Below are positions 2,313-55,388 of a DNA stretch of 64,000 bases, one piece after another (position 1 is the stretch's first letter; the number at the start of each line of letters is the position of its first letter). Below the pieces are notes generated by a model, which saw only the letters and a program-made list of their open reading frames with translations, had not been told where the DNA came from and did no database searches. Origin of the DNA: Aequorivita capsosiphonis DSM 23843 (lineage in GTDB: Bacteria; Bacteroidota; Bacteroidia; Flavobacteriales; Flavobacteriaceae); contig NZ_AUBG01000006.1 of the NCBI RefSeq assembly GCF_000429125.1, positions 62,001 to 126,000 on the forward strand, written 5' to 3'. The position numbers and the translations under genes were made by a program.

Positions 2313-3284
2313 TCAAGCCTTTGTAAAAGCATAATTCTTATAAAACTCTTTTTCATCGGTAAAAGATGTTTCAATCCTCAGCCCAGATTCTTCAGCTAAC
2401 CAACTGACGATTTTATCGTCATATTTTTGTGAAATTTCTGTGTGGATAGATTCCCATTGGTCAAAACTAACTGTGAGCTGGAGTTTTTCAATGCTTACTT
2501 TCATAGCTTCAGTAGCAACTAAAAAACTCTTAGCGGTACCCGTTTCGGGATTATAGGCTTCCCAATGCCTAAATTTTTCAACCTCAAAATCCGCTCTAAA
2601 TTCACGATTTATTCTGGTCAAAATATTTCTGTTGAACGCTTCAGTAATGCCCGTTTCATCATTATATGCGTTCAAAATGGTCTGTGGATCTTTCTTTTGG
2701 TCAAAGCCCATAAAAAGCATATCTTCTGGAAGCATTGCATCTTGCAGTTTTGTGAGAAATTCAATTGCCTTGGGATGTTTGAGATTGCCAATATTACTTC
2801 CCAAAACCATAATTACTTTCTTGCGTTTGTTGAAACCTTTTAGTCTTTCCAGCACTTCAAAATATTCGCCTATCTCTGCTTCAACATTTAGTGTTGGCAT
2901 TTCGTGGGCAAGGTTCTTTGAGAGCATTTCTACAGCGTTTTCGCTAATATCGATGGGTTTATACGTGAAATTAAAGTTATTTTCTGTCATATACTTCAGA
3001 AGAACCTTGGTTTTTTTACCATCGCCGGCGCCCAATTCAATTAAGTCAAGGCCTTTTTCCTTATCTCGAAAAAGCTCCCCGATTGCGACAGTGTTTTTTG
3101 AAATTATCTCGAACTCGCAGCCCGTGAGGTAGTACTCTGGCATCGCCATAATATCTTGAAAAAGCTTGTCGCCCTTTTTGTCGTAAAAATATTTTGAGGA
3201 AAGGTGTTTTGGGAAACTGGAAAGACCTTCAAAAATTTCATTTTTAAAGGTCGTGTTTCGTTGCGGTTGTGTTTTTGTATCCAT
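2313..3284 (-). CDS. egtD: L-histidine N-alpha-methyltransferase EgtD
   Basis: A 323-residue SAM-dependent methyltransferase that converts histidine to hercynine, the first step of ergothioneine synthesis. Family hallmarks are MPEYYLTGCE near residues 48-57 (substrate-binding Tyr/Glu region), the SAM motif LIELGAGDGKKT at 81-92, MVLGSNIGNL, and the EgtD-type C-terminus with FRADFEVEKFRHW. The length matches the family. It follows egtB on the same strand with a 16-bp gap, so the two form an operon. The fused ovothiol synthase architecture is absent: methyltransferase and sulfoxide synthase are separate genes here, which favours ergothioneine over ovothiol. Confidence 0.95.
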   Translation of the reverse strand: MDTKTQPQRNTTFKNEIFEGLSSFPKHLSSKYFYDKKGDKLFQDIMAMPEYYLTGCEFEIISKNTVAIGELFRDKEKGLDLIELGAGDGKKTKVLLKYMTENNFNFTYKPIDISENAVEMLSKNLAHEMPTLNVEAEIGEYFEVLERLKGFNKRKKVIMVLGSNIGNLKHPKAIEFLTKLQDAMLPEDMLFMGFDQKKDPQTILNAYNDETGITEAFNRNILTRINREFRADFEVEKFRHWEAYNPETGTAKSFLVATEAMKVSIEKLQLTVSFDQWESIHTEISQKYDDKIVSWLAEESGLRIETSFTDEKEFYKNYAFTKA

Positions 3285-52317: not shown

Positions 52318-53490
52318 ATGTACCAAAGAGTGGGACAATCCGCCTATAAAGCAGATCTTTCTGCCACAACAAATCTTGCCAACTATTTAAAAAACCCTGA
52401 AAATAACTTTAAAAGTGTTCACGTTGCTGGCACCAATGGAAAAGGCAGTACCAGCCATATGTTAGCTTCCGTGTTTCAGGAAGCGGGTTATAAAACTGGA
52501 CTTTATACTTCTCCGCATTTAAAGGATTTTCGTGAACGAATAAAGATTAATGGCGAAATGATTCCAGAAAAAGCTGTTTCTGAATTCGTAGCAATGCACA
52601 AACCATTTTTTGAAAGCAATCAGGTTTCATTTTTCGAAATGACCGTAGGATTGGCATTCGATTTTTTCAGAAAAGAAAAAGTGGATATTGCGATTATTGA
52701 AGTTGGAATGGGAGGAAGGTTGGACAGCACCAATATTATAACTCCAGAAGTATCTGTAATCACAAATATTGGCTTGGACCACACGCAATTTTTAGGAGAT
52801 ACTTTAGAAAAGGTTGCCGCAGAAAAAGCTGGTATTATAAAAGAAAAGGTTCCCGTTGTTATCGGTGAATCATTACCGGAAACCAAAATTGTTTTTGAAC
52901 GGATTGCTTCGGAAAGCAATGCGCCTATAACTTTTGCTGAAAATTTCGATGCAAGTTGTTATACTACAGATTTAAAGGGAATTTATCAGCAAAGGAACTT
53001 AAAAACCGTTTTGGCGACGCTGAATATCCTTCAAAAGAAAGATTGGAACATTTCCGAAGAAAACATGAATAAAGGCTTGCTGAATACCGTAAGAAATACT
53101 GGTTTAATGGGGCGTTGGCAGGTTTTAAGAACAAAGCCTAAAGTAGTTTGCGATACAGGTCATAACAAAGAGGGATTGCGCTTGGTTATGGAGCAAATAA
53201 GCAAAGAAGCGTATAAGACGCTGCATATTGTTTTAGGCGTTGTAAGCGATAAGGATTTAGCTTCCATTCTACCTTTGTTTCCAACAGACGCGATCTATTA
53301 TTTCTGTAAGCCAAATATTCCACGTGGTTTGGACGCGTCACTTTTATTTTCCCAGGCCAGAGGATTTGGCTTGGTAGGTGATGACTATATTTCGGTGCTA
53401 AGCGCTTATAATGCGGCTGTAGATGCAGCCTCTGTAGATGATCTTGTGTTTGTTGGAGGAAGTACTTTTGTAGTAGCAGAAGTGCTTTAA
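52318..53490 (+). CDS. folC: folylpolyglutamate/dihydrofolate synthase, start codon uncertain
   Basis: A Mur-ligase-fold enzyme that adds glutamate to folates. It has HVAGTNGKGSTSHMLASVF (P-loop), YTSPHLKDFRERIKING, IIEVGMGGRLDSTNI, GLDHTQFLGDT and VCDTGHNKEGL. The ATG at 52318 gives 390 residues, but the in-frame sequence upstream (52273-52317) reads NYPETIAWLFAQLP after an ATC codon, matching the N-terminus expected for FolC. No ATG, GTG or TTG occurs between that and the tonB stop. The true start may be a non-standard ATC, or a start lost by mutation. It is the downstream partner of folA and thyA in folate metabolism. Confidence 0.92.
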   Translation: MYQRVGQSAYKADLSATTNLANYLKNPENNFKSVHVAGTNGKGSTSHMLASVFQEAGYKTGLYTSPHLKDFRERIKINGEMIPEKAVSEFVAMHKPFFESNQVSFFEMTVGLAFDFFRKEKVDIAIIEVGMGGRLDSTNIITPEVSVITNIGLDHTQFLGDTLEKVAAEKAGIIKEKVPVVIGESLPETKIVFERIASESNAPITFAENFDASCYTTDLKGIYQQRNLKTVLATLNILQKKDWNISEENMNKGLLNTVRNTGLMGRWQVLRTKPKVVCDTGHNKEGLRLVMEQISKEAYKTLHIVLGVVSDKDLASILPLFPTDAIYYFCKPNIPRGLDASLLFSQARGFGLVGDDYISVLSAYNAAVDAASVDDLVFVGGSTFVVAEVL

Positions 53491-53507
53491 ACAAGATTTT
53501 ATAAAAT

Positions 53508-53557
53508 AAAAAAACCGAAGTTTTCACTTCGGTTTTTAAAAACTGGTGGGCGATGAG
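53508..53557 (-). repeat. direct repeat, left copy: terminator plus tRNA 3' end
   Basis: About 50 bp matches 53893-53943 with one single-base length difference. It holds the hairpin AAAACCGAAG / CTTCGGTTTT with flanking A/T runs (a bidirectional terminator, also serving folC on the plus strand) and the acceptor end of tRNA-Val including CCA. Confidence 0.9.
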
Positions 53558-53643
53558 AGCCTGTTCCGAATTAACTTCGGAAGGTTCGAACCCCCGACCC
53601 TCCCGAAGTTAATTCGGGATGCTCTGTACCAAGTTAGCTATAA
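53543..53643 (-). pseudogene. broken tRNA-Val copy fused to the GIY-YIG gene
   Basis: On the minus strand the segment reads TAGCTAACTTGGTACAGAGC (D arm), then an arm with TCCCGA ATTAACT TCGGGA in place of the anticodon arm, then the T-arm GGGTCGGGGGTTCGAACC identical to the real tRNA. A 25-bp insertion (TTCCGAAGTTAATTCGG and following bases) breaks the T stem before CTCATCGCCCACCA. The 5' acceptor half is missing, replaced by the end of the GIY-YIG frame. It cannot fold as a working tRNA. Confidence 0.8.
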
Positions 53644-53889
53644 CTGTGAATGTATCAATTTCTCAAGCATTATCCGACTCTTCCATTTTTTCATTTGCGT
53701 TTCGCGCTTTCTAGCCTCCATTTTTGTTTCAAATATTTCGGAATATTTGAGTTCCCAATCCTTGGCTTTGGCAGTAAACCCCTTATGTTTCCACAAATGC
53801 TCCTTGAGCCGTGTTGAAACATTTTCGGTTGACCCAATATAGTATCTATTGAGTTTGGCGGAATATAGGATGTAAGTGTAATAATTCAT
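53638..53889 (-). CDS. small GIY-YIG nuclease-domain protein
   Basis: An 83-residue single-domain protein: YTYILYS and RYYIGSTENVSTRLKEH carry the GIY-YIG signature with the catalytic Arg, followed by KGFTAKAKDWELKYSEIFETKMEARKRETQMKKWKSR. Such UvrC-N-like proteins may nick or cleave DNA. It lies immediately downstream of tRNA-Val on the same strand. Its ATG follows the tRNA terminator T-run by three bases, and its TAG stop is formed by positions 8-10 of a broken tRNA copy. Expression would need read-through of that terminator or an internal promoter. This arrangement suggests a mobile or homing element. Confidence 0.93.
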   Translation of the reverse strand: MNYYTYILYSAKLNRYYIGSTENVSTRLKEHLWKHKGFTAKAKDWELKYSEIFETKMEARKRETQMKKWKSRIMLEKLIHSQL

Positions 53890-53892
53890 AAT

Positions 53893-53943
53893 AAAAAAAC
53901 CGAAGTTTTCACTTCGGTTTTTTAAAAACTGGTGGGCGATGAG
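53893..53943 (-). repeat. direct repeat, right copy: terminator plus tRNA-Val 3' end
   Basis: It matches 53508-53557. The hairpin AAAACCGAAG / CTTCGGTTTT with a T-run terminates tRNA-Val. The A/T run ends three bases before the GIY-YIG start codon. The 385-bp period between copies brackets the GIY-YIG gene and the tRNA remnant. Confidence 0.9.
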
Positions 53944-54007
53944 GGGTTCGAACCCCCGACCCCCTCGGTGTAAACGAGGTGCTCTGAACCAGCTGAGCTA
54001 ATCGCCC
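53933..54007 (-). tRNA. tRNA-Val (anticodon TAC)
   Basis: A complete cloverleaf on the minus strand: acceptor GGGCGAT/ATCGCCC, D stem GCTC/GAGC, anticodon stem CCTCG/CGAGG with loop TTTACAC (anticodon TAC, reads GTA and GTG), T stem GGGGG/CCCTC and loop TTCGAAC. CCA is encoded at 53932-53930. A strong promoter lies just upstream. Confidence 0.97.
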
Positions 54008-54407
54008 TTCTTGTTAGCGGTTGCAAAGATAGGTTACTTTTTAATTTCACCAAACATTTATTTGAAATATTTAATTAAAAATTACTGTTGTATAGTTGAA
54101 GTTTTCGCGACTTCCTAAAAATCAGGCCAATAAAGACTTTGATGCATTTGGCTTATTAACAACTCTACTTTTCATTTTATTTAAATACAAAGCAAAATTA
54201 TCGGAAGGGAGGCTCAATTTGAATTTTAATAGCTGAATGTTCAGTGTTTTACACTTTATTCCTATAGATTTAGCAGACTCTTGGTTCTTTTACGAAGCGG
54301 TCTTTTATCTTTTCTCGGATAATACTGATTAAAAATAGATTTGCCTAGTTTATAAAAGTGTCAAATGCATTAACTTTGAATCTTCATAAACTCTAAACAT
54401 AAAGCCT
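54008..54407. other. 400-bp region between tRNA-Val and yitT
   Basis: It carries the tRNA promoter at the left end and, at 54371-54378, TAACTTTG, a -7 match for the yitT gene with a poor -33 element. The rest is AT-rich and shows no gene, RNA or repeat. Confidence 0.6.
54024..54054 (-). promoter_or_regulatory. tRNA-Val promoter
   Basis: On the minus strand TTTG (54054-54051), a 19-bp spacer and TATCTTTG (54031-54024) match the flavobacterial consensus exactly. The tRNA starts 16 bp downstream. It would also be the only evident promoter for the GIY-YIG gene. Confidence 0.88.
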
Positions 54408-55388
54408 TTGGTCCCATTCTTTAAGAGAATTATAATTGAAGTAGTAAGTCTTCGTAATAAAAATAGGAAGCAACCTGCTTCTTCAGAATCCTTTAATAAA
54501 AGTGTCACCAATCTTGAGGTTGAAGTAACACATGAAATTTCGGAGTTATTTATTTTGATTCTCGGGGTGTTATCAGCATCTTTCGGGCTAAAGGGTTTCT
54601 TGATGCCGAGTGGTTTTCTTGATGGCGGTGTCACGGGGATTTCGCTAATGATAAACAGCTTGTTTGGAGTCTCGCTCTCGTTGCTCCTTGTGTGTTTTAA
54701 CCTGCCGTTTTTGATTCTCGCATATTTCTCTATTGGGAAAAGATTCGCAATAAAGAGTGTCCTGGGTATTGTTTTACTGGCAGTAGCCGTAGCATTGATT
54801 CCTTTTCCGCAAATAACTGATGATAAAATATTGATAGCGGCCTTTGGAGGACTCTTTTTAGGTTTGGGAATAGGTCTTGCCATTAGAGGGGGAGCAATTA
54901 TTGACGGTACCGAAGTTCTGGCTATATACATTAGCAGAAAAACAAGTCTTACTGTAGGGAATGTCATCATGCTATTTAATGTGATTATCTTTATGACGGC
55001 CGCATACATTCTCTCCACCGAAACTGCCTTATATGCAATTCTCACCTATTTTTCAGCTTCCAAAACAGTCGATTTTGTAATTGACGGTATTGAAGAGTTT
55101 ATGGGAATCACCATCATTTCTGAGAAAAGTGAGGAAGTACGCTTAGCTATAATCGAAAAAATGGGACGAGGTTGCACTATTTTTAAGGCTGAAAACGGCT
55201 TTACTAAGGAAGGCGATCCCCGTAGACCCGTTGATGTGGTTTATACCGTAATTACCCGTTTAGAGATGAGTAAACTGAAAACGGAAATAGAGAAAATAGA
55301 TAGTCAGGCTTTTATAATTATGACCTCGGTAAAAGATGCCAAAGGAGGAATGATAAAAAAGAAACCCATTAAAAAGTTTGATAAATAA
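54408..55388 (+). CDS. YitT-family membrane protein (DUF161 + DUF2179)
   Basis: A 326-residue protein with five or six membrane helices: LFILILGVLSASFGLKGFLMPSGFLDGGVTGISLMI, then helices around LLLVCFNLPFLILAYF, ILIAAFGGLFLGLGIGLAIRGGAIIDGTEVLA and LTVGNVIMLFNVIIFMTAAYI. A C-terminal soluble DUF2179 domain follows (AIIEKMGRGCTIFKAENGFT to IIMTSVKDAKGG). Function is unknown. The start is a TTG at 54408; no ATG precedes the first helix, and the charged N-terminus (about 40 residues) fits homologues I recall. Confidence 0.88.
   Translation: MVPFFKRIIIEVVSLRNKNRKQPASSESFNKSVTNLEVEVTHEISELFILILGVLSASFGLKGFLMPSGFLDGGVTGISLMINSLFGVSLSLLLVCFNLPFLILAYFSIGKRFAIKSVLGIVLLAVAVALIPFPQITDDKILIAAFGGLFLGLGIGLAIRGGAIIDGTEVLAIYISRKTSLTVGNVIMLFNVIIFMTAAYILSTETALYAILTYFSASKTVDFVIDGIEEFMGITIISEKSEEVRLAIIEKMGRGCTIFKAENGFTKEGDPRRPVDVVYTVITRLEMSKLKTEIEKIDSQAFIIMTSVKDAKGGMIKKKPIKKFDK

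Follow-up and report, generated by a model that had tools for sequence, protein, structure and literature searches.

Integrases classically use transfer RNA (tRNA) genes as landing sites. Islands and prophages with tyrosine integrases enter such a gene, restore one tRNA and leave behind a piece of the native one. GIY-YIG enzymes can act on tRNA genes as well: in the passages of the source on which we draw, SegB of phage T6, a GIY-YIG enzyme, cuts tRNA genes and drives tandem amplification, and we read its preferred motif as the reverse complement of a T-loop sequence (PMC13096335). In this report, we analyze a GIY-YIG nuclease gene that lies between an intact tRNA-Val gene and a broken copy of it in a 64,000-nucleotide stretch of the Aequorivita capsosiphonis DSM 23843 genome (hereafter, the window), together with similar units from other Bacteroidota.

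There is good support for an origin of these units by insertion into tRNA genes, with the tRNA repaired in the process; plain tRNA duplication is unlikely. The window's unit is one case of a widespread Bacteroidota pattern, which points to an unrecognised family of tRNA-gene-seeking elements. Judging from sequence comparisons, we give slightly better than even chances to the idea that the unit is a minimal homing-type, tRNA-targeted GIY-YIG element. A literature search, with preprints and most subscription journals outside its scope, found no paper on this arrangement in Bacteroidota.

Broken tRNA copies beside GIY-YIG genes

On the minus strand of the window, an intact tRNA-Val(TAC) is followed by a terminator-like hairpin, an 83-codon GIY-YIG gene, a copy of the tRNA-Val and a second terminator (Table 1). 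A first-pass annotation of the sequence had proposed this order, and ARAGORN, the open reading frame (ORF) and Pfam agree with it. The copy (locus L003) is not a chance resemblance, because it scores above 60 of 60 shuffles. As the annotation also held, the TAG stop codon of the GIY-YIG gene (53638-53640) is formed by tRNA-Val positions 8-10, and the copy contains two palindromes. Other details required adjustment. The first seven tRNA bases are replaced as claimed, but they are not the only loss, since the D arm of the copy differs from that of the intact tRNA and its own anticodon arm is gone. Direct repeats of 50 bp, described as 385 bp apart, are present with a start spacing of 386; they are 76% identical ungapped, and 98% identical over 54 nt only with one gap. 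No integrase lies between the repeats, in line with the annotation: according to the ORF list of the window, no other gene and no sufficiently large ORF is present there, and the GIY ORF occupies the space. A group I intron carrying a GIY-YIG enzyme was considered and rejected, as Rfam matches at 53300-54300 up to E 1 include no intron families, and the window protein scores 20.3 bits against NCBIfam grpIintron_endo, below the cut-off of 56.05.

Copies of this kind are the rule beside such genes. Among 128 units with an intact upstream tRNA (repeats removed by protein plus tRNA over all sets, as also in the hairpin counts below), 9 are cut by contig ends. Flanking copies, whose absence from relatives the first-pass annotation had listed as evidence against itself, were found downstream in 109 of the 119 testable units, each scoring above all 60 shuffles, and 105 of the 109 continue as far as the 3' end of the tRNA. 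Among the 109, the stop codon of the ORF aligns with a tRNA position in 64, is part of an insertion inside the copy in 24, and precedes the copy in 21; a TAG at tRNA positions 8-10, as in the window, is seen in 19 units.

The annotation had also named tandem duplication without the nuclease as a source of copies that would count against it. Control tRNAs, defined by the lack of a GIY gene within 700 nt and located in stretches retrieved for other purposes (many of them belonging to the genome or genus of the window), have a copy in 6 of 64 cases. Three of these (L025, L039 and L323) scarcely exceed the null and one (L072) is moderate; L170 and L184 are strong, and their stretches also carry GIY units. 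Within the genus, 24 tRNA-Val loci from 24 genomes were surveyed, some with little sequence beyond the tRNA (L069, L071). Nineteen have neither a copy nor a GIY match. Five have a copy. Four of these also have a GIY match; in the remaining one (L064), the contig breaks off within the gene, of which only the start is present. L064 is consequently the exception among the 20 loci that lack a GIY match, 19 of which lack a copy. L323, with its marginal score as a control, counts as lacking a copy in this survey. One of the 19 loci without a copy, L070 (G015), holds only the start of a GIY frame right behind tRNA-Val and looks like a decaying unit.

A second arrangement is the mirror image of the first. 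Here the ORF runs towards the intact tRNA, with the copy on its upstream side, as found in 18 of 23 cases tested; 15 of the 18 copies start at tRNA position 1. If three arrays are left out in which ARAGORN reads a broken copy as a tRNA (L082, L199 and L204), 15 of 20 have a copy, and 14 of the 15 start at position 1. That the copy keeps its 3' end in one form and mostly its 5' end in the other is expected of an insert that supplies the missing part of the tRNA.

These data bear directly on plain tandem tRNA duplication, or an old integrase island that has lost its integrase and left attL and attR, as the source of the units. The direct repeats of the tRNA 3' end are what such events would leave, copies do exist at six of 64 control tRNAs, two of these copies being strong, and islands appear to have entered two other loci. 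On the other hand, copies are far commoner beside the gene, both strong controls come from stretches with GIY units, the mirror form retains the 5' end, a single gene family is present at the sites examined, and the window unit has no integrase. We consider this explanation extremely improbable. Plain duplication was set aside in view of how seldom control tRNAs and gene-less genus tRNA-Val loci have copies; an island remnant was set aside for the unit itself, the apparent islands overlying other loci. An insert landing in a tRNA gene explains both arrangements, the kept tRNA end of the broken copy, the foreign terminator and the empty sites, and tandem duplication does not.

We therefore favor tRNA-targeted insertion, and suggest how it might proceed. 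The insert would land inside a tRNA gene and bring the missing part along, so that one working tRNA remains. The nuclease would cut tRNA genes of the type in which it resides, in or close to the loop that now holds a hairpin, and the break would be mended from a unit-bearing homologue through the tRNA arms, whereby the unit is copied in. Unequal recombination between tRNA copies could then yield both arrays and precise losses. Because the start codon closely follows the terminator, expression presumably occurs by read-through from the tRNA promoter.

Table 1. Features of the tRNA-Val unit and its flanks, in window positions
Feature	Position	Strand	Evidence	Remark
Intact tRNA-Val(TAC)	53930..54007	-	ARAGORN; Rfam tRNA 66.6 bits	Putative target and presumed promoter source
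Terminator-like hairpin 1, between tRNA and GIY start codon	53895..53923	-	Repeat arms, sequence	
GIY-YIG nuclease gene, 83 codons, TAG stop	53638..53889	-	ORF; PF01541 E 5e-16	
Broken tRNA-Val copy, tRNA position 8 to CCA	53544..53640	-	Sequence, alignment to tRNA	
Hairpin TCCCGA-n-TCGGGA replacing the anticodon arm of the copy	53601..53619	-		
Second hairpin, within the T loop of the copy	53564..53582 (approximate)	-		
Terminator-like hairpin 2, beyond the broken copy	53509..53537	-	Repeat arms	
Direct repeat, right copy (tRNA 3' end + terminator)	53508..53557			
Direct repeat, left copy (tRNA 3' end + terminator)	53894..53943			

Distribution, enzyme lineages and history

A search profile (A1) built from ten such GIY-YIG proteins has matches in 51 of 118 Bacteroidota genomes at E<=1e-16. 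Contig records with matches come from the orders Flavobacteriales, Bacteroidales, Marinilabiliales, Sphingobacteriales, Cytophagales and Chitinophagales, and the layout occurs at more than 20 anticodons, a few of which are readings of broken copies. Genes were counted as distinct by protein plus 60 upstream bases within each of three overlapping sets. The phylum sample comprises 89 loci (L232-L320), 29 from the profile search and 60 stretches from its match list with the lowest-scoring listed matches left out. Of its 118 distinct genes, 52 have an intact tRNA within 130 nt upstream, and another 9 belong to arrays that follow such a tRNA; 13 have a tRNA within 150 nt downstream, 4 lie at contig edges, and 40 are without a tRNA. 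In the same order, 111 genes from 80 contig loci divide into 58 upstream, 15 in arrays, 9 downstream, 4 at edges and 25 without; the 87 genes of genus or near-genus loci, a set that includes a few loci of other families (L072-L079), divide into 27, 1, 6, 4 and 49, and the 49 include many longer genes. A second set of small GIY genes in the genus (L125-L149), mostly of about 95-123 codons, has a tRNA near only at L147. Tandem GIY genes are present in 47 of 245 locus-strand groups, with up to eight in a row. Eight stand in tandem at L286 (G094), with T-arm motifs around them and no intact tRNA within the fetched stretch.

The window's genome has 19 GIY matches. Four of these have an intact same-strand tRNA 39-44 nt upstream, namely Val, Arg(TCG), Met(CAT) and Asn(GTT). 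Two further genes form a tandem pair with broken Arg copies, and one more stands behind a tRNA 3' fragment. At L008, a GIY array starts with the 3' half of a tRNA-Arg, some 7 kb away from the tRNA; integrative islands seem to have entered this unit and that of L010, parting the tRNA from the GIY gene by about 7 and 18 kb, respectively. At L016 (about 1271-1330), the 5' half of a tRNA-Met (positions 1-35, 100%) runs into a TCCCGA-type hairpin just upstream of an intact tRNA-Met that is itself followed by a GIY gene; it looks like the remains of an older mirror-type unit from which the gene was lost.

The window protein matches Pfam PF01541 (GIY-YIG) with 59.2 bits (cut-off 22.6, E 5e-16). The Tyr, Tyr-x-Gly, Arg and Glu of GIY-YIG enzymes are catalytic-type residues, and these are almost invariant among 154 aligned proteins (Y17 and R27 in 154, G19 in 153, H31 in 152, E63 in 151 and Y6 in 147). 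An AlphaFold2 model of the window protein is a bare GIY-YIG fold (pLDDT 88.3). The nearest solved sequences are UPF0213 proteins (1zg2, E 1.4e-10; 1ywl, 2e-7), and a Foldseek search with the model places 1zg2 at the top and also finds SLX1 (6seh, TM 0.64, E 0.011). Phage or plasmid carriage was rejected: no record in the phage collection matched the window protein at E<=0.01, the plasmid collection gave no match, and two IMG/VR contigs matched. One of the latter (L230) has the gene at its edge, before what we read as an Arg-type broken copy. Homing endonucleases of PHROGs match weakly (best 0.0012). An anti-phage defence family was likewise rejected, because the best PADLOC match is 1.3e-4 over a short stretch.

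Sequence comparisons indicate that the GIY-YIG reading frame is under purifying selection, with a median dN/dS of 0.152 over 76 pairs (those of 615 with dS under 2; the pairs are non-independent and drawn from intact frames). Each nuclease lineage is largely confined to a single tRNA or a few related ones. On the protein tree, where a few anticodon labels are ARAGORN readings of broken copies, the nearest relative has the same anticodon in 97 of 153 cases, as compared with a mean of 20.7 and a maximum of 35 in shuffles. Each lineage may therefore have its own target, a specificity that we read only from gene neighbourhood.

A clean empty site was found in the genus, where tRNA-Val lies between folC and a YitT-like gene (window 53490-54408; genus loci L050-L071 and L321-L346), oriented with folC or against it, depending on the genome; units at this site are found in both orientations. 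On a FolC tree that is weakly resolved (6 of 23 inner branches starred), G012, with a filled site, pairs with G041, with an empty tRNA-Val site, at 88/81. In G012, the terminator that resembles the one in G041 sits on the far side of the unit, and the first terminator belongs to another type. Presence and absence of a unit at one site in close relatives, the pattern looked for in homing endonucleases, is thus seen in this pair, and 19 of the 24 genus tRNA-Val loci lack both copy and GIY match; however, the empty site is equally expected after precise loss in G041. Genomes with filled tRNA-Val sites are scattered on the FolC tree. The tandem arrays and this clean empty site in a sister species lend further support to a homing-type element.

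Several observations weigh against that reading. The nuclease would be expected to attack the intact tRNA gene next to it as well, which calls for some restraint on self-cutting. Ten of the 119 testable units have no significant copy, nor do 5 of 23 in mirror form, and at L174 (mirror form), the upstream copy is a second whole tRNA rather than a broken one. Of the 118 phylum-sample genes, 40 are without an intact tRNA close by, and 17 of these have a T-arm-like motif near. The nearest solved relatives are UPF0213 proteins and SLX1, with the homing enzyme I-TevI ranking far below both in sequence and structure comparisons. Identities of the Val-type gene and of FolC run in parallel in four genus genomes, just two others of 249 family genomes have DNA matches (partial, 70-80% identical), and the Val-type tree is poorly resolved and loosely grouped by order. 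By these last three measures, we saw no recent horizontal spread of the Val type. Parallel divergence and grouping by order fit long residence with repeated clean loss as well as they fit invasion. The first-pass annotation had spoken of a tRNA-targeted mobile or homing unit; insertion targeted to tRNA genes is upheld by the contrast between units (109 of 119) and controls (6 of 64), and mobility or homing is not borne out, in view of the FolC-parallel divergence.

The same facts would suit a nuclease adopted by the host, an old resident beside tRNA genes that is no longer mobile and has some cellular function, for example in tRNA gene copy number, recombination or defence. Purifying selection, divergence like that of FolC, the lack of close DNA copies elsewhere in the family sample and the spread over six Bacteroidota orders are all compatible with it. 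Against it stands the patchy distribution: 51 of 118 phylum genomes have a match (E<=1e-16), copy and GIY match are both missing from 19 of 24 genus tRNA-Val loci, and the G012 site is filled when that of G041 is not. The genes also stand at more than 20 anticodons, and the PADLOC matches are weak only. We regard host adoption as doubtful, with a minor chance of being correct.

Hairpins and dispersed palindromes

Most broken copies contain a hairpin that is foreign to the tRNA. A perfect hairpin of six or more pairs, with a stem absent from the native tRNA, is present in 93 of the 109 copies and in 11 of the 18 mirror-form copies. Six perfect pairs are reached by 6 of 109 ORF stretches of equal length and, through the stems proper to a tRNA, by 28 of 109 native tRNAs; when a copy is shuffled, its observed stem is attained in 10% of the shuffles on average. 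By eye, the hairpin occupies the anticodon arm in Val, Arg(TCT), Lys, Ala and Gln units, the T arm in Phe, Asp, Leu and three of four Gly(GCC) units, and the D loop or anticodon loop in Arg(TCG) units. All 37 Val-type copies that score 60 or more and reach the tRNA 3' end have a hairpin at the anticodon arm (by eye; three are imperfect), mostly TCCCGA-n-TCGGGA. Native Val anticodon arms occur in six versions; the tally that compares them with TCCCGA-type hairpins accepts only three stem starts.

Related palindromes are dispersed in the genomes. The window's genome (G000) has 61 TCCCGA-n-TCGGGA palindromes versus 1 for the reversed control. Over 118 genomes, the median is 14 in those with the genes and 3 in those without (within-family AUC 0.76, permutation p 0.0005), counts that include palindromes inside the units, which may account for part of the excess. 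The palindromes of the window's genome probably form a system like that of repetitive extragenic palindromic (REP) sequences, and this genome has five Y1-type transposase matches, two with an internal stop. In a G002 array (L066, about 2960-3078), a tRNA-Val copy runs into tandem 24-base hairpin units (TCCCGAAGCAAGTTCGGGACAGGT).

The hairpin does not serve merely to kill a spare tRNA. This explanation was rejected because copies consisting of only the T arm and acceptor strand (Phe units, Leu L094), too short for a tRNA, also carry one. Such short copies also tell against a toxin that cleaves tRNA and for which the broken tRNA is a decoy or antidote. The pairing of enzyme lineage with tRNA agrees with a toxin, as do several Val-type copies for which a cloverleaf fold with a different loop is still feasible (ARAGORN: SeC, Stop, Gln, Lys, Cys). 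However, an RNA target need not be the neighbouring gene, and the empty site and the two mirror arrangements are signatures of events in DNA. We find a toxin very improbable.

Another reading of the hairpins is an insertion element driven by them, whose protein, related in fold to the structure-specific nuclease SLX1, would act on hairpins formed by tRNA-gene DNA and by TCCCGA-type palindromes; the palindromes would be element ends, dispersed as REP-like repeats. The excess of foreign hairpins over ORF stretches agrees with this, as do the TCCCGA-n-TCGGGA motif or a variant kept in Val-type copies beside six native arm versions, the hairpins of the shortest copies, the place of SLX1 among the nearest folds, and the larger number of palindromes in gene-bearing genomes. 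Nevertheless, native tRNAs reach six perfect pairs fairly often, the palindrome counts include the units' own, the five Y1 transposase matches could explain REP-like repeats, and both position and sequence of the hairpin vary between lineages. A hairpin-driven element seems quite unlikely.

Returning to tRNA-targeted insertion, we tentatively propose an extension of it, although its chances are appreciably short of even. There may be a phylum-wide class of two-ended tRNA-gene insertion elements, each consisting of hardly more than a hairpin and a GIY-YIG gene of about 80-100 codons. They would open a tRNA gene at a loop and restore the tRNA from either side, in 3'-repairing and mirror 5'-repairing forms, and a hairpin would cap what is left of the native tRNA; the TCCCGA-type palindromes scattered over these genomes would be loose ends of the same system. 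Such elements would be neither a known transposon, nor an integrase island, nor a classical homing gene.

Relation to described systems

An integrase-free nuclease of about 80 residues appears to act comparably to integrases at more than 20 kinds of tRNA gene throughout a phylum, with one tRNA staying intact. If this is true, the lineages tied to tRNA types offer a simple, testable system for how a nuclease changes its target. Many small genes annotated as 'GIY-YIG nuclease' and many tRNA pseudogenes would also be explained, and perhaps part of the palindromic repeats.

Units of this kind share features with several described systems. As with tRNA-integrating islands and prophages, the landing site is a tRNA gene, one tRNA is made whole and a piece of the native tRNA is left over; in contrast, the present unit is a few hundred bases long, lacks an integrase, has a mirror form and carries a hairpin at the break, and its copy often reaches into the D arm. 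The closest solved sequences belong to the UPF0213 family (1zg2 and 1ywl), which presumably goes under the names YazA and YhbQ; we know of no tRNA link for this family. SLX1 resembles the window model in its GIY-YIG fold (6seh), but SLX1 has a further domain and an SLX4 partner, both absent from a protein of about 80 residues. REP sequences go with RAYT transposases, and the present palindromes are likewise short, dispersed and linked to one enzyme; here, however, the enzyme is a GIY-YIG protein instead of a Y1 transposase, and the link is only statistical.

SegB of phages T4 and T6, a free-standing homing endonuclease from the phage tRNA region, is the closest worked example (in T6), although the present unit is built differently. 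Like the window protein, SegB is a GIY-YIG enzyme encoded near tRNA genes, which in its case are of many isotypes; it cuts tRNA genes, and tRNA and nuclease gene undergo tandem amplification (PMC13096335). The present unit is chromosomal, encodes about 80 residues and belongs to lineages tied to tRNA types. Its gene is bracketed by an intact tRNA and a copy, whereas the passages on SegB describe phage genomes only (PMC13096335).
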